In this document: positions 10,136-16,757 of the stretch, in pieces
Numbering within the stretch: position 1 is the stretch's first letter
Layout: each line of letters begins with the position of its first letter
NCBI RefSeq assembly: GCF_033242265.1
Contig: NZ_BTFW01000001.1
Location: 1,834,501 to 1,898,500, forward strand
Source of the DNA: Novosphingobium sp. IK01
GTDB lineage: Bacteria; Pseudomonadota; Alphaproteobacteria; Sphingomonadales; Sphingomonadaceae
Direction of reading: 5' to 3'
Length of the DNA: 64,000 nucleotides
Notes under the pieces: generated by a model
The model's input: only the letters and a program-made list of their open reading frames with translations
The model's database searches: none
What the model was told of the DNA's origin: nothing
Program-made: the position numbers and the translations under genes

Positions 10136-10786
10136 ATGTTCGTTCGTGCCTATCTTCGAGCCTCGACCTCGCAACAGGACGCCTCTCGGGCGAGAGGTGC
10201 CCTTGATGCGTTCGCAACCGAACGGGGCTTGCGCATCGCCGCCCGCTACATGGAGAATGAAAGTGGGGCCAAGCTCGATCGGCCCGAGTTGTTTCGTCTG
10301 TTAGCAGATTGTGACCCCGGCGACGTTCTTTTGGTGGAGCAGGTTGACCGCCTGTCCCGCCTCACGGCTCCGGACTGGATGAAGTTGCGATCGGAGATCG
10401 ACGCTAAGCAGGTTCGGATCGTGGCGTTGGACCTGCCCACGTCATGGAGCCTTGCCGCCACTAGCGACGAGTTCACCGCGCGGATGTTTTCTGCGGTCAA
10501 CAATATGATGCTCGATGTTCTCGCTGCTGTTGCCCGAAAGGATTATGATGACAGGCGGCGGCGCCAGTCCGAAGGCACAGCGCGTGCCAAGGCTGCGGGC
10601 TTGTATAAAGGGCGACCTGAGAACAAGGCTCGCAATGTCGCTATCGCTGCTATGTTGGGAGACGGTCGCACCTGGCGTGAGGTCATGGACGCCACAGGAT
10701 GTAGTCGAACGCTTCTAGCGAAAATTGCGCGTGACGTTCGGGAGCGACGCGCTGAAGCAGATGAGGCCCCCTGCCCCCCCCTGTGA
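10136..10786 (+). CDS. Serine resolvase/recombinase
   Basis: The 216-residue protein is a small serine recombinase. The N-terminal catalytic domain has the nucleophile motif YLRASTSQQ, the EQVDRLSR arginine motif near residue 65, and the long E-helix ending in RRRRQSEGTARAKAAGLYKGRP. A short C-terminal helix-turn-helix (TWREVMDATGCSRTLLAKI) follows. It resembles ParA-type plasmid resolvases. Direct repeat B lies upstream and repeat A follows the stop codon immediately (10786-10812). The enzyme may resolve multimers or excise the block between the B repeats. Confidence 0.88.
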   Translation: MFVRAYLRASTSQQDASRARGALDAFATERGLRIAARYMENESGAKLDRPELFRLLADCDPGDVLLVEQVDRLSRLTAPDWMKLRSEIDAKQVRIVALDLPTSWSLAATSDEFTARMFSAVNNMMLDVLAAVARKDYDDRRRRQSEGTARAKAAGLYKGRPENKARNVAIAAMLGDGRTWREVMDATGCSRTLLAKIARDVRERRAEADEAPCPPL

Positions 10787-10979: not shown

Positions 10980-11234
10980 ATGCCAGCTTTGACGATCCGC
11001 AATATACCCGATGACGTCCATCGGGGGCTCAAGGCCCTCGCTGCAAGCCACGGTCAGAGCACGGAGGCGGAAGTGCGTGCCATTCTCGCGGCAGCCGTTA
11101 AGCCGGCGTCACGCCTGAAGATGGGGCAAGCTCTTTGGGAGCTTGGCCGTGAGGCCGGGCTCACCAGTGACGACATTGCTGCAATGGAAGCATCCCGCGC
11201 CAGCAAGCCCGCTGAGCCGCTGAGCTTCGATTGA
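10980..11234 (+). CDS. FitA/VapB-type antitoxin
   Basis: An 84-residue protein with an N-terminal ribbon-helix-helix of the FitA/Arc type (LTIRNIPDDVHRGLKALAASHGQSTEAEVRAIL split here as LTIRNIPDDVHRGLKALAA then HGQSTEAEVRAIL) and an acidic C-terminus that would wrap the toxin. AGGAG at 10965-10969 sets the ATG at 10980. Its TGA stop overlaps the toxin ATG. It should bind the toxin and the two upstream dyads. Confidence 0.9.
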   Translation: MPALTIRNIPDDVHRGLKALAASHGQSTEAEVRAILAAAVKPASRLKMGQALWELGREAGLTSDDIAAMEASRASKPAEPLSFD

Positions 11235-11656
11235 TGATTGTCCTTGATACGAACGTCATTTCGGAAATGATGAAGCCTGAGCCGGCAGAGAGTGTGCGGC
11301 GCTGGCTTGACGATCAGCCAGCGGAGGTTCTGTTTCTCACATCGGTTAGCCAGGCCGAGCTGCTGTTTGGCATCGTCATGCTTCCGGCAGGTCGTCGCAA
11401 GGAAAACCTTGCTGCCGTGCTCACCGGCCTTGAGCCTCTGTTTGCCGGGCGCATTTTGCCTTTCGATAGCGATGCCGCGCAGCATTATGCCGATCTGGCG
11501 GTTGAAGCCCGGAGCAACGGCCAGGGCTTTCCGACACCAGATGGCTACATTGCCGCCATAGCCGCATCGAAGGGGTTTGCTGTTGCCACGCGCGATGTTG
11601 CCCCCTTCGAGGCTGGCGGAGTGGCTGTCATCAATCCTTGGGAGGCTGGGGAATGA
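11234..11656 (+). CDS. PIN-domain toxin (FitB/VapC)
   Basis: A 140-residue PIN-domain RNase. The acidic active site is visible: Asp in IVLDTNVISE near residue 5, Glu in QAELLFG near 42, Asp in TPDGYIAAIA near 99 and Asp in ATRDVAPF near 117. The length and sequence fit FitB-type VapC toxins, which cleave structured RNA such as tRNA. The ATG at 11234 overlaps the antitoxin stop (TGATG), and the frame ends in an ATGA overlap with the recombinase gene. Confidence 0.92.
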   Translation: MIVLDTNVISEMMKPEPAESVRRWLDDQPAEVLFLTSVSQAELLFGIVMLPAGRRKENLAAVLTGLEPLFAGRILPFDSDAAQHYADLAVEARSNGQGFPTPDGYIAAIAASKGFAVATRDVAPFEAGGVAVINPWEAGE

Positions 11657-12264
11657 AGCTGGGATATGCTCGGGTCAGCACGGGGGAGCAGAACCTTGCT
11701 CTGCAAATTGACGCGCTCCGCGCGGCGGGAGTTGAGCGTATCTTTGAGGATAAGGGGGTCAGCGGCTCGATGGTTCTCAAACCGGCCTTTGCGGACATGC
11801 TGAGGCACGCCAGGGCTGGCGATGAGATCATTGTATGGCGGCTAGATCGACTGGGCCGGTCCCTTACCTCCCTCATCACCGAGTTGGAGTTGCTGGCCAA
11901 ACTTGATCTTGGTTTTCGGTCCTTGACCGAGCAGATCGAAACGGTGACGCCCGGTGGCCGGCTGTTCTTTCATATGGTTGGAGCCTTTGCTCAGTTTGAG
12001 CGGGATGTGATCCGAGAGCGTACTAATGCTGGGCTTCAGGCGGCACGGCGCGCTGGCAAACGCTTGGGGCGGCCTCCGTCGATCAGCGATTCCCAATGGC
12101 AGCAGGTTAAGGCGCTGATGTCTGGCCCTGCTGAAATGAGTGTGGCGTCCGTCGCCGATCTGCTGGGGGTAAGCCGCCAAGCTATCTACAAGCGGCTCCG
12201 CCGCGAGCAAGCCACAGAGGCATCCGCTTCAGAGGCAGGCCCCCTGCCCTGCCCGGTCGGTTAG
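11653..12264 (+). CDS. Serine recombinase (Hin/TnpR type) coupled to the TA pair
   Basis: This 203-residue invertase/resolvase-type serine recombinase has the nucleophile motif YARVSTGEQ, the arginine motif WRLDRLGRSL near residue 70, the helix E ending KRLGRP and a C-terminal DNA-binding helix-turn-helix (VADLLGVSRQAIYKRL). The start at ATG 11653 overlaps the toxin stop and is preceded by GGAGG, so it is probably translated from the same mRNA. Coupling to a toxin-antitoxin pair suggests a maintenance module of plasmid or island origin. No res or inversion sites could be assigned. Confidence 0.88.
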   Translation: MKLGYARVSTGEQNLALQIDALRAAGVERIFEDKGVSGSMVLKPAFADMLRHARAGDEIIVWRLDRLGRSLTSLITELELLAKLDLGFRSLTEQIETVTPGGRLFFHMVGAFAQFERDVIRERTNAGLQAARRAGKRLGRPPSISDSQWQQVKALMSGPAEMSVASVADLLGVSRQAIYKRLRREQATEASASEAGPLPCPVG

Positions 12265-12528: not shown

Positions 12529-12554
12529 TGAAGCGCCCCGGGTTTCCCGGAGGC
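12529..12554 (+). repeat. IS3 terminal inverted repeat (orfB side)
   Basis: It starts TGAAGCGCCCCGGG and is identical over 26 bases to the reverse complement of 14985-15010. Confidence 0.93.
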
Positions 12555-12567
12555 ATTTTCAATTGAG

Positions 12568-13476
12568 TCATGCAACCATATCGAGGGTCTCTCTGGCTGC
12601 ATAGTAGTTTGCCTCGGCCTCGGCGGGCGGGATGTAGCCGATGGGGCCGAAAAGGCGCTGGTTGTTGAACCAATCCACCCAGCGCAGGGTTGCTATTTCG
12701 ACTGCCGATGCGCTTGGCCATGACCTCTGACGCCAGATCACCTCGGTTTTGTAGAGGCCATTGATGGTCTCGGCCAAGGCATTGTCATAGCTGTCGCCGA
12801 CGCTGCCGACCGATGGTACGAGGTTGGCTTCGGCCAGACGCTGGGTGTAGTTCATGGCGAGATATTGAACGCCCCTGTCGCTATGGTGGATCAGGCCATC
12901 TTCCGGCCCTGGCCTGCGGGCTTGTATCGCCTGCTCCAAGGCGTCCAGCACGAAGCCGGCGGTAGCCGACGTGCTGACCTTCCAGCCCACGATCCGGCGG
13001 GCATAGGCGTCGATCACGAAAGCTACATAAACGAAGCCGGCCCAGGTGTGGACGTATGTAAAATCGACCACCCACAATGCGTTGGGACGTTCAACGCGGA
13101 ACTCGCGATTGACTTTATCCAATGGGCACGGGGCTTTCGGATTGCTGACCGTGGTGATCGTCGTCTTGCCACGCCGAGCGCCCGCCAGCCCCATGGCCGC
13201 CATCAGGCGCTCCACGGTGCACCGGGCGACAGCCACGCCATCGCGCAGCAACTGGTGCCAAACTTTGCGTGCTCCATAGAGCCCGGAACTGGCCTCGTGG
13301 ACGCGCTTGATCTGCGCCTTGATCTCGTCATCACGACGGGCACGCGCGGGGCGCCTGCCGGGATCGACCAGGCGACGTGCATGTTCATGGTAGGAGGACG
13401 GGGCGATCGCCAACTCATGGCAGATCGGCTCGATACCCAGATCCTCACGATGGGCGTCGATGAACGACATCATCAT
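12568..13476 (-). CDS. IS3 family transposase OrfB
   Basis: The 302-residue rve-type integrase domain carries the DDE motif: Asp in LWVVDFTYV, Asp in IHHSDRGVQY and Glu in NALAETINGL with the usual 35-residue spacing to the second Asp. An HTH_21-type segment precedes it. The native start is one of three consecutive ATG codons at 13476; the frame now runs on to 13527 only because it continues into the IS110 end. OrfB appears intact, but because it is separated from orfA, the normal OrfAB frameshift product can no longer form, so the element is probably inactive. Confidence 0.92.
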   Translation of the reverse strand: MMMSFIDAHREDLGIEPICHELAIAPSSYHEHARRLVDPGRRPARARRDDEIKAQIKRVHEASSGLYGARKVWHQLLRDGVAVARCTVERLMAAMGLAGARRGKTTITTVSNPKAPCPLDKVNREFRVERPNALWVVDFTYVHTWAGFVYVAFVIDAYARRIVGWKVSTSATAGFVLDALEQAIQARRPGPEDGLIHHSDRGVQYLAMNYTQRLAEANLVPSVGSVGDSYDNALAETINGLYKTEVIWRQRSWPSASAVEIATLRWVDWFNNQRLFGPIGYIPPAEAEANYYAARETLDMVA

Positions 13477-13505
13477 TTCTCGCGGCGGTCGAGTATCCGT
13501 CTTGG

Positions 13506-14444
13506 TCAAGGGCGAACAGGTTGCCAATCGCGTCCTTCACGCAACAACGTGTTTGCCAGAACGATGATGCGCCGCATGACGGCGGTGATAGCCACCTTCT
13601 TTGCTTTCCCTGCATTTACGAACTGCTGATATTTGTCACGGAAATCATGATTGAAGCGAATGGCAACCAACGCAGGCATGTAAATTGCCCGTCGAAGTGA
13701 TGCCCTACCACCAATAATCCGCTCTTTGCCTTGCCACTTGCCTGACTGTTGCGTCATAGGCGCAAGCCCAGCCAGAGCGGCGATCTTTTTGCTGTCGAGA
13801 TGTCCAAGCTCTGGCATGTCGATCACCAACGTGGTCGCGGTCAATCTGCCGATCCCGGGAATGGTCATGAGGCGTCTGATGCGCTCATCAAGGGTGCCAC
13901 GCTGCTGAGCGATCTGCGCAATCACTTGATCCAGGGCTTTGATGTCCGTGTCGATGTCATCGATCCGGCGGCAAAGTTGGTCCTTCACAAGCGGGTTGCT
14001 CGCTGTGGCGAGACGCGTCTTTGCGGTGATCTGATCTTTGACCATGGCCCGCCTAGCTGTCAGCAACTCTCTGAGATCATGAATATCTTCGCCTTCAATG
14101 CCTTGTGGGGCCAGATCAAGGACCACGCCCATTCGTGCCAACATCCTGGCATCAACGCTGTCGGTCTTGGCCAGACGGCCGATAGCCTGAGCAAAGCGCC
14201 GCGCTTGCTTCGGATTGACCTTGATGAAAGGCTGCCCCGCCAAGCTGAGGTATCGTTCAAGCCCACGATGATATGCGCCGGTCGCCTCGAAAACGACCAA
14301 CACCCCCTTATTCTTACCCAGCCATGTGCATAGCTGGGCGAAACCCTCAACCGTGTTGGGCAGGCTGAGTGCTGCGTCTTGGGAATGCCAAAACGCATCC
14401 AGGCGGTCTTTCGACACGTCGATCCCGATGGTATCCTTGGCCAT
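13506..14444 (-). CDS. IS110 family DEDD transposase (bridge recombinase)
   Basis: The 312-residue protein has the N-terminal RuvC-like DEDD domain: Asp in IGIDVSKD, Glu in VVFEATGAYH and the Asp pair in KTDSVDARMLA. A coiled-coil linker follows, then the C-terminal Transposase_20 domain with TIPGIGRLTATTL (near residue 195) and the serine-containing GGRASLRRAIYMPAL (near residue 250), where the catalytic Ser of this family lies. The frame is full length. Such recombinases use a bridge RNA from the element's own leader to pair donor and target DNA. Confidence 0.95.
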   Translation of the reverse strand: MAKDTIGIDVSKDRLDAFWHSQDAALSLPNTVEGFAQLCTWLGKNKGVLVVFEATGAYHRGLERYLSLAGQPFIKVNPKQARRFAQAIGRLAKTDSVDARMLARMGVVLDLAPQGIEGEDIHDLRELLTARRAMVKDQITAKTRLATASNPLVKDQLCRRIDDIDTDIKALDQVIAQIAQQRGTLDERIRRLMTIPGIGRLTATTLVIDMPELGHLDSKKIAALAGLAPMTQQSGKWQGKERIIGGRASLRRAIYMPALVAIRFNHDFRDKYQQFVNAGKAKKVAITAVMRRIIVLANTLLREGRDWQPVRP

Positions 14445-14459
14445 CTCTTCTTTCTACCT

Positions 14460-14640
14460 TTGCTTGTCGTTCGGGCCCGGAGCCCACGTATCCGTTCAGG
14501 TCGTAAGAAAAGACGGAGGCTCGCCAAACTCGACCGCGGTCCTGCAAGACCAAGCTCCGCACGGCGCCGCCTCCGCCACAACCCGGCACCGCAGCTGCGG
14601 TGCCGGGTTGTGGCTCCCTTTTGCCTCAGGAGCCGGGAAT
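14460..14640 (-). ncRNA. IS110 bridge RNA (predicted)
   Basis: Approximate limits within the leader. On the minus strand, 5' to 3', there is a palindromic stem (14614-14575), then a loop closed by GGAGGC/GCCTCC. This loop contains GCGGAGCT (14560-14553), identical to the left half of the insertion site, and GCGGTCGAG (14537-14529), complementary to its right half CTCGACCGC. A second loop contains ACGGATAC (14495-14488), identical to the element's right end, and GACAAG (14468-14463), complementary to core plus left end CTTGTC. This is the target-loop-then-donor-loop order known for IS621 bridge RNA. RNA ends and expression are inferred. Confidence 0.85.
14575..14614. repeat. Perfect 40-bp palindrome in the IS110 leader
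   Basis: Two 20-base arms meet without a spacer at 14594/14595 (centre CAG-CTG). As RNA it would form the 5' stem-loop that precedes the two guide loops in IS110 bridge RNAs. As DNA it could extrude a cruciform. Confidence 0.85.
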
Positions 14641-14642
14641 TC

Positions 14643-14960
14643 TCATAAGACAAGCTCCGCCATCGCAAAATACGCTGATGCCTTGCGCAGGATCTCGTTG
14701 GCGCGCCGCAGTTCCTTGACCTCGCGCTCCAGCAGTTTGAGCCGGGCCTGGTCATCGGCGGCCAGCGCCGCTGGTGCCGTTCGTCGGCTCGCCTCCTCAC
14801 GGCACCAGCGGCGCAGAGTCTCGGCCGTGCAGCCAATCTTGCTGGCGATCGAGGTCATCGCCTCCCACTCCGAGCCGTAATCGGCGCGATGCTCGCCAAC
14901 CATGCGCACCGCGCGTTCGCGGACTTCAGGTGAAAACTTGTTCCGGGTCTTGCTCATCAC
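14643..14960 (-). CDS. IS3 family OrfA, C-terminus altered by IS110
   Basis: The 105-residue protein has a homeodomain-like helix-turn-helix ([13 protein letters not shown], then [14 protein letters not shown]) and a leucine-zipper region ([19 protein letters not shown]) used for OrfA/OrfB multimerisation. The last native residues, after AMAEL, are replaced by VL and a stop codon from the IS110 end. The DNA-binding part is intact, so it could still act as a repressor of the IS3 promoter. Confidence 0.88.
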
Positions 14961-14984
14961 GAAAGCTCCTTCTCACAAATCGGA

Positions 14985-15010
14985 GCCTCCGGGAAACCCG
15001 GGGCGCTTCA
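14985..15010 (-). repeat. IS3 terminal inverted repeat (orfA side)
   Basis: It is the exact reverse complement of 12529-12554. It marks the right edge of the accessory region. Confidence 0.93.
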
Positions 15011-15542: not shown

Positions 15543-16757
15543 ATGCTCAGTAAAGTCACCAAGGCACTTCGCACCGATCCCGCCGGATTTCCGCGGCGCG
15601 CTGCCAGTGCCATGGCAGAACGCGGGAGGCTCGACGCCTTTCGCCTGCTCGGGATGCCCGCCGGCAGCGTCGTGCATTATGGCGTTCACCGCAATGGCAA
15701 TGCCGGGGATACCGCCCTGTTCACGGCAACGCGAATGCTGTTCGATACCCGCTTCGGCGCCCAGACCTGGACCCGACTGCCGGTGCGCGCCCCCGTCCGC
15801 CCTGCCGATATAGACCGCATCAACGCTCACGCCAGGGCCGTGGTGGTCGGCGGAGGCGGATTGATCATCCCGGATTCGGTCTCGAACAGCCTGTCGGGCT
15901 GGCAATGGAACATCGCACTCAAAGATCTCGAGCGGCTTGATCGCCCCCTCGTACTCAACGCAGTGGGCTACAATGCCTTCCACGGCCAATCGAACTTCGC
16001 CGACCGATTTGGGGCACATGTCGTGGAGACAGTCCGCAAGTCAGCCTTCGTCGGACTGCGTAATACCGGTTCGATCCGCTCCCTTAGCACGCACCTTCCG
16101 CCCGAACTGACATCACGCTTGCGCCACCAACCCTGCCCGACAACCGTTCTTTCGTATCTGCTCCCCGCTCATGAGGCCACAAGCCCCCCTGCCCGCGACT
16201 TCAAGCACACACCAGGGCGTCACTTGTCGATCAACCTGGCCTTTGACCGGGTCGAGCGGCGCTTCAACGGTCAGGTCGAGGCCTGCGTTCGGGATATTGC
16301 CGACGCTGCACACCATATGGTGGCACACGGATGGCGCGTGAGCGTGGCCATCCACGATCCGCGCGACCGTTTTTTTCTGCCGCTTCTGCGCCGCTTCGAC
16401 CTCACATTCGACATCATCGACATTGCCCATGCCGGGCTGCGCACAATTCTGGATTATTACCGGACCACCGACTTGACCATCGGGATGCGCGGTCACGGGC
16501 AAATGGTCCCCTTCGGACTCCAGCGCCCGATCTTCACGCTCTCATCACATCCTAAAATGGACTATTTCCTCGAAGATATCGGACAGCCCGGCTGGGGCGT
16601 TGACATTCGTGAACCCGGTTTTCGTGACGCCCTGATTGCAGGCATGGAAAGCGTGGTCGCCGCCCCGGAAGCTACATACGCCACACTCCAGACAGCCCAA
16701 GCCCGCTTGTGGAAGCAAATGCAGGACAATCTGACCTTGTGCGCAGATGCCTTTTGA
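15543..16757 (+). CDS. Polysaccharide pyruvyl transferase family protein
   Basis: The 404-residue protein carries the PS_pyruv_trans domain. Visible markers are the N-terminal YGVHRNGNAGDTAL, the glycine motif VVVGGGGLIIP near residue 100, the central AIHDPRD and the C-terminal GMRGHGQMVPFGL with the conserved Arg and His. These enzymes add pyruvate ketals from phosphoenolpyruvate to sugars of exopolysaccharides, making the polymer acidic; some members have other roles. It is separated from the next gene by an AT-rich gap and is likely its own transcript. Acceptor sugar unknown. Confidence 0.85.
   Translation: MLSKVTKALRTDPAGFPRRAASAMAERGRLDAFRLLGMPAGSVVHYGVHRNGNAGDTALFTATRMLFDTRFGAQTWTRLPVRAPVRPADIDRINAHARAVVVGGGGLIIPDSVSNSLSGWQWNIALKDLERLDRPLVLNAVGYNAFHGQSNFADRFGAHVVETVRKSAFVGLRNTGSIRSLSTHLPPELTSRLRHQPCPTTVLSYLLPAHEATSPPARDFKHTPGRHLSINLAFDRVERRFNGQVEACVRDIADAAHHMVAHGWRVSVAIHDPRDRFFLPLLRRFDLTFDIIDIAHAGLRTILDYYRTTDLTIGMRGHGQMVPFGLQRPIFTLSSHPKMDYFLEDIGQPGWGVDIREPGFRDALIAGMESVVAAPEATYATLQTAQARLWKQMQDNLTLCADAF

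Follow-up and report, generated by a model that had tools for sequence, protein, structure and literature searches.

An IS110-group element in IS3 orfA of Novosphingobium sp. IK01 carries a predicted bridge RNA whose guides match its insertion site

The window analysed here, a 64,000-nt stretch of the Novosphingobium sp. IK01 genome (RefSeq assembly GCF_033242265.1; contig NZ_BTFW01000001.1, positions 1,834,501–1,898,500), contains an IS3-family element interrupted by an IS110-group element, whose 210-nt leader upstream of the recombinase ATG can be read as a bridge RNA specifying both the insertion site and the ends of the element (Table 1). The recombinase has the domains PF01548 (DEDD RuvC-like) and PF02371 (Transposase_20) and scores 217.8 bits against NF033542 (cut-off 140). 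D9, E53, D95, D98 and Ser234 align with D11, E60, D102, D105 and S241 of IS621 (PDB chain numbering is offset by 2 from the published IS621 numbers). PDB relatives are 9t56 (ISCro4 transposase, best by sequence, E 2.8e-29) and 8wt6. The stop codon lies 12 nt from the right end, and the combination of a long left-end leader and a short right end is that of the IS110 group, the arrangement being reversed in the IS1111 group. The element is a new member of the IS110 group, with what appears from its sequence to be an ordinary bridge RNA, presumably produced and active.

At the junctions, the left flank ends in GCGGAG|CT and the right flank reads CT|CGACCGC, with CT present at both, while the element ends around this core are ACGGATA-CT (right) and CT-TGTC (left). 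The element-free site is GCGGAG-CT-CGACCGC. Removal of the element restores IS3 cleanly, as the joined flanks align without gaps to an uninterrupted IS3 of a congener (L162; 89.9% identity over 604 nt). Both the CT cores and the clean restoration of IS3 had been given in a preliminary description of this DNA, made from the sequence alone, and both are borne out. Insertion at the shared core is without net duplication beyond CT, as is characteristic of the IS110 group. NF033516 is matched by both interrupted reading frames, orfA and orfB; the orfA score falls short of the whole-protein cut-off, in keeping with a partial protein. The ALIL pseudoknot is the frameshift signal of IS3 and lies beside the AELDR codons that form the target. 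Re-reading of the sequence placed the four guide segments of the preliminary description on the minus strand exactly where it had put them, matching the target and the element ends.

Agreement between guides and flanks was scored at 49 distinct sites, from the element and relatives of 38–100% protein identity. Seventy loci had both flanks and both guides and gave 49 distinct flank/guide combinations, equal flanks in different genomes being counted once. A further 28 loci were left out as sub-matches or duplicates (e.g. L008–L021, L035–L038, L077, L119, L123–L127, L131, L132), and 39 lacking a flank or guide were set aside, including L042, whose flanks match and whose guide was missed by the search pattern; added patterns served to read the guides of L141, L143, L145 and all members of the close clade. 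An element’s own guides matched 4.80 of 6 left-flank bases, versus 1.79 with the guides of other elements, and 4.90 of 7 right-flank bases, versus 2.56, and none of 20,000 permutations of guide types reached the own-guide matching. The same was found for the 33 sites from relatives with <70% identity (left 4.52/6 versus 2.03, right 4.52/7 versus 2.56; 0/20,000 permutations). This supports the bridge-RNA reading of the preliminary description, for an RNA that is presumably active.

The sites represent 20–21 guide types, and the flanks follow the leader loops. In relatives of ~38–58% identity the donor ends ACGGATA-CT-TGTC (with small variations) and the donor guides are kept and the target guides differ, with changed guide/flank pairs such as TTTTCGAG with CTCGAA, TTCCCGAG with CTCGGGA, AATCAAG with CTTGATT and ACTAAAG with CTTTAGT. 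Target guides that follow the flanks in distant relatives are a new observation. On the donor side, guide and right end agree at 48 of 49 sites (44 with ACGGATAC, four with ACAGATAC; L060 disagrees), the variant ACAGATAC being found in both the left donor guide and the right end of L051, L079, L080/L081 and L136.

The guide-bearing, two-loop part of the leader as modelled spans 14574–14460 and is preceded by a hairpin with an 18-bp stem. A single fold of the window leader alone gave −106.4 kcal/mol (z −5.8), in which the target guides pair with each other only via 1–2-bp helices. The consensus fold of 36 leaders, chosen as a diverse set (L128 was excluded, its end being misread), has two loops, in the order previously described, target loop before donor loop. 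Both target guides lie in unpaired internal loops, free of the stems in which guides might be buried; on the donor side this freedom is incomplete, two bases of the left donor guide sitting in a weak 2-bp hairpin. The consensus also pairs the right donor guide with the element’s own left end, which is its donor DNA partner and not an RNA stem; this pairing and the 2-bp hairpin are omitted from the pair counts. In the alignment 94.7% of cells are paired, with a covariation score of 0.518 (neither reached in 500 shuffles), and 18 of 22 pairs have two-sided changes (reached by 1/500 shuffles), while versions of the structure slid along the alignment are only 31–63% paired. The 5′ hairpin also covaries in relatives, with two-sided changes in 6/6 counted pairs and 85.7% of cells paired, and the guides hold a fixed register beside the conserved stems. 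A covariance model made from 31 of the 36 leaders scored 117 bits on the window leader, a training sequence, and 84–102 bits on six held-out relatives (L057, L122, L128, L139, L140 and L147), L057 being nearly identical to a model member, L058; L137, also in that scan, belongs to the model. Eighteen control loci (IS3 or other) gave no match to the model up to E 10.

Several observations weigh against a bridge RNA that directs insertion. At least four bases match on both sides at 34/49 sites, the remainder being misfits; at least 5/6 left bases match at 34/49 sites and at least 5/7 right bases at 31/49; and among all guide types the own guide ranks first, alone or jointly, at 38/49 sites (left) and 35/49 (right). 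Left matches of three bases or fewer are found in L041, L060, L094, L095, L103, L128, L129, L138, L140, L143 and L146, with a single match in L041, where the junction has an additional T that shifts the frame. Right matches are as low in L007 (3), L056 (1), L058 (3), L081 (2; flank CTTGTCTT), L129 (3) and L138 (0). The worst misfits are L138, L056 and L081 (both on the right) and L060, which has a CA core and a broken reading frame. Since close-clade guides hardly vary, covariation of the target guides rests on distant relatives, and the four ACAGATAC cases on the donor side may represent one change by descent. Pairs were counted on the very alignment used to predict the structure, which favours that structure, and related sequences may beat shuffles even without structure. 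Recognition of the leader among known RNAs, which the preliminary description had looked to for support, failed: no Rfam family matches it, and the covariance model misses the IS621 leader (best 3.1 bits, E 2.4; L151, L152), for which reason no kinship with IS621 is claimed at the level of RNA sequence. Eleven Rfam matches to the leader alone, none near the gathering score and seven of them on the 5′ hairpin, were not used. In L080/L081 and L138 the right flank begins with CTTGT, resembling an IS110 left end, where the right target would be expected; these are perhaps remains of tandem copies.

Close relatives (74–100% protein identity) include elements from Sphingobium, Novosphingobium, Paracoccus, Salipiger, Agrobacterium and Acetobacter. 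The target guides hardly differ among 24 aligned close-clade leaders, the exceptions being one base changed in one guide (L049, L060), a base missing beside a guide (L042) and loss of the target loop (L053). Of 32 close-clade loci, counted as loci and not as proven independent insertions (L002, L003, L005, L047, L052, L054 and L081, being repeats or parts, were not included), 23 are flanked on one or both sides by IS3 orfA/orfB sequence, at the AELDR codons at the end of orfA, by the frameshift; orfB follows on the right in a different frame. The other nine (L006, L007, L040, L043, L049, L060, L065, L078, L079) lack IS3 context. The left flank is readable in eight of these and matches at least 5/6 bases in seven (L049 compared by eye), the exception being L060. 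In effect, the guide reproduces the AELDR codons conserved where IS3 orfA ends. This IS3 site is new, as is the retention of its guides across at least three alphaproteobacterial orders. The exact target 14-mer was found at 58 places (counted by eye) in 39 of 149 congener genomes, and 20 of the 30 places that were read with their loci lie in IS3 orfA; over-representation of the 14-mer was considered and rejected, as the reversed control is as common (~60, summed by eye). In L128 (2422–2700), two successive copies of the left end are present, with ~60 bases of following sequence.

The Novosphingobium sp. IK01 genome (3.77 Mb, four contigs) contains seven copies of the leader, and six of the elements are intact and identical over 1,164 compared bases. 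The IS3 that harbours L001–L003 is of one type; that of L004 has diverged further (94% over the query), the IS110 part being 100% identical. L006 and L007 lie outside IS3, yet at GCGGAGCT·CGACCG and GCGGAGCT·CGA, respectively, so these copies with an unchanged leader are at sites matching the guides and not at unrelated targets. The L006 site (AAGCGGAG-CT-CGACCGGC) falls within an flhB-like reading frame, in its 3′ tail, and the L007 site (TAGCGGAG-CT-CGATGCTC) is also in a reading frame, the left piece of which has no Pfam match. Unoccupied copies of GCGGAGCTCGA and GCGGAGCTCGACCG were not found in the genome; for the former, zero may be due to chance, as the reversed control 11-mer occurs only three times, and saturation of targets is suggestive only. 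The seventh copy, on contig 3 (49027–52561; L005, L008), is split inside the recombinase gene by another insertion, its two parts overlapping by 9 query bases. Outer flanks of the IS110-bearing IS3 copies L001–L004 differ, with no target duplication seen. For L003 and L004, one outer flank is the same in the 25 bases inspected, suggesting that copies have rearranged with one another.

Table 1 Features of the IS110-group element, its predicted bridge RNA and the interrupted IS3 (window positions).
Feature	Position	Strand	Basis or remark
IS110-group element	13494..14654	minus	1,161 bp counting one CT core; ends set by six identical intact copies
IS110 recombinase, 312 aa	13506..14444	minus	Pfam, NF033542, PDB relatives
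Element left end, CTTGTC	at 14654	minus	copies; junction/empty-site comparison
Element right end, ACGGATA	at 13494	minus	copies; junction/empty-site comparison
Left target half GCGGAG + CT core	14653..14660	minus	copies, empty site
Right CT core + right target half CGACCGC	13485..13493	minus	copies, empty site
Target site sequence, GCGGAGCTCGACCGC			
Donor sequence, ACGGATACTTGTC			
5′ leader hairpin, 18-bp perfect stem	14575..14614	minus	single fold; covariation in relatives
Predicted target-binding loop (outer stems + inner hairpin 14551-14538)	14516..14573	minus	consensus structure, pair counts
Left target guide, GCGGAGCT	14553..14560	minus	own-flank matching
Right target guide, GCGGTCGAG (complement of CTCGACCGC)	14529..14537	minus	own-flank matching
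Predicted donor-binding loop	14463..14495	minus	consensus structure
Left donor guide, ACGGATAC	14495-14488	minus	matches right end
Donor-loop stem	14485-14473	minus	consensus structure
Right donor guide, GACAAG	14468-14463	minus	partner: core + left end
Host IS3-family element, interrupted	12529..15010	minus	inverted ends, both TGAAGCGCCCCGGG read inwards
IS3 orfA, cut after ...SAYFAMAE and terminated by IS110 left end	14643..14960	minus	ORF, Pfam, translated flanks
IS3 orfB frame, open into IS110 right end	12568..13527	minus	ORF, Pfam, NF033516
ALIL frameshift pseudoknot, RF01497	13514-13401		Rfam

On one side of the IS3::IS110 structure, two serine resolvase genes (10136–10786 and 11638–12264, plus strand) lie close together, and a gene for a FitA-like antitoxin beside one for a PIN-domain protein (10980–11656, plus strand) is likely to be a VapBC-type toxin-antitoxin pair. 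Just past IS3 on the other side is a polysaccharide pyruvyl transferase-like gene (15543–16757, plus strand).

Instead of repeated guided insertion, the main source of the association with IS3 could be an IS3::IS110 composite that moved or was duplicated, or gene conversion between IS3 copies. L001–L003 could still fit such an origin: in the 2,101 bases of IS3 plus IS110 used as the query they are 100% identical (rounded; scores 3790, 3781 and 3749), their outer flanks differ and no target duplication is visible. The outer flank common to L003 and L004 points the same way. However, the same IS110 is found at the same base in L004, a copy with only 94% identity over the query, and other genera have it there in diverged IS3s; L006 and L007 occupy sites that match the guides but are not part of IS3. 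Composite movement as the sole cause is ruled out for L004, L006, L007 and the other genera, and as the main source of the link with IS3 it seems unlikely, if worth keeping in mind.

It is very improbable that the recombinase protein itself reads the target DNA, with the leader matches a by-product. The close clade cannot separate RNA from protein, its target guides hardly varying, but flanks follow the leader loops across the different guide types, and the accessible parts of PMC11208160 and PMC11187229 present biochemistry showing RNA guidance for IS621 and ISEc21. That short guides picked by eye from a 210-base leader match by chance or selection is scarcely conceivable, given the fixed register beside conserved stems and the sites outside IS3; chance matches are ruled out by the permutation outcome.

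The element is thus almost certainly a guided IS110 element, with a bridge RNA that chooses target and donor, landing mostly in IS3. The non-coding leader would encode a target-binding loop, in which GCGGAGCT and GCGGTCGAG would pair with both strands of GCGGAG-CT-CGACCGC, and a donor-binding loop, in which ACGGATAC and GACAAG would pair with the joined ends ACGGATA-CT-TGTC of an excised circle. The recombinase would then join donor and target at the common CT core, with no loss and no duplication. As the guide sequence is that of the conserved AELDR codons where orfA ends, next to the frameshift, landing would be mostly in IS3 transposons, plus some look-alike sites. The sequences, sites, covariation and predicted fold are results of the analysis, and the anatomy of the element fits the published IS110 bridge-RNA mechanism. 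By analogy with IS621 and ISEc21, the RNA, with ends presumed from the leader, would be produced, a circular intermediate formed and the chemistry shared, and the element may be currently active.

Insertion leaves IS3 orfA nearly whole (...AELVL, stop) but should prevent OrfAB fusion. OrfA acts as a repressor in some IS3-family elements. A speculative and rather doubtful extension is that truncated OrfA is such a repressor, each insertion turning an IS3 into a repressor source, so that an RNA-guided transposon would disarm and silence its host transposons while they serve it as safe and plentiful places to land. There is a resemblance between the left target guide plus its tail (GCGGAGCTTGGTCTT) and the left junction (GCGGAGCTTGTCTT), a likeness that might permit updating of the guide through gene conversion; many distant relatives have no such tail.

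In these elements the donor loop is almost constant and some 20 natural target loops are followed by their flanks, which makes the family a compact natural test of bridge-RNA logic; the natural guide/target pairs could supply specificity data for recombinase work. The family also shows IS110 elements attacking a further site in IS3, where conserved codons adjoin a frameshift, and suggests that guides retained in nature are directed at sequences both conserved and supplied by other mobile elements. The orfA/frameshift target could affect the host transposon, without any new mechanism. A literature search, sparse in subscription papers and without preprints, found no paper on the present element or on IS110 elements at IS3 orfA in Alphaproteobacteria; trapped elements of Paracoccus in the accessible part of PMC3281130 include no IS110.

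IS621, an IS110-group element of E. coli, is similar in its DEDD recombinase with a catalytic Ser, its long upstream leader, the target loop preceding the donor loop, guides for both strands and the CT core, and the left end here, CTTGTATTAT, resembles CTTGTCTTAT. It differs in its target, which is REP in IS621 and IS3 orfA here, and the leader here is too diverged for an RNA-model match. The right-target match here also reaches up to 7 bases past the core, unlike in IS621; right guides longer than that of IS621 are described for some orthologues in the accessible text of PMC11208160. According to the accessible parts of PMC11208160, PMC11208158 and PMC11187229, the left guides pair with bottom strands and the right guides with top strands, the core being part of the pairing; cleavage and exchange, carried out by the DEDD and Ser residues, begin with the top strands. 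ISEc21, also of the IS110 family, is comparable by description only: as far as the accessible text of PMC11187229 extends, it has an upstream non-coding RNA guide (seekRNA) and a target already reported in a conserved region of IS3-family transposase genes, at another IS3 site, whereas the present element strikes the end of orfA at the frameshift. Likeness to the ISCro4 transposase, the best solved relative, concerns the protein only. IS4321 and IS5075 also target another transposon, in the partial accounts consulted, and differ in belonging to the IS1111 group, whose left ends are short and right ends long, and in their target, the ends of Tn21-family transposons. RNA guidance itself is already known, and the present element is a natural example with a different IS3 site.
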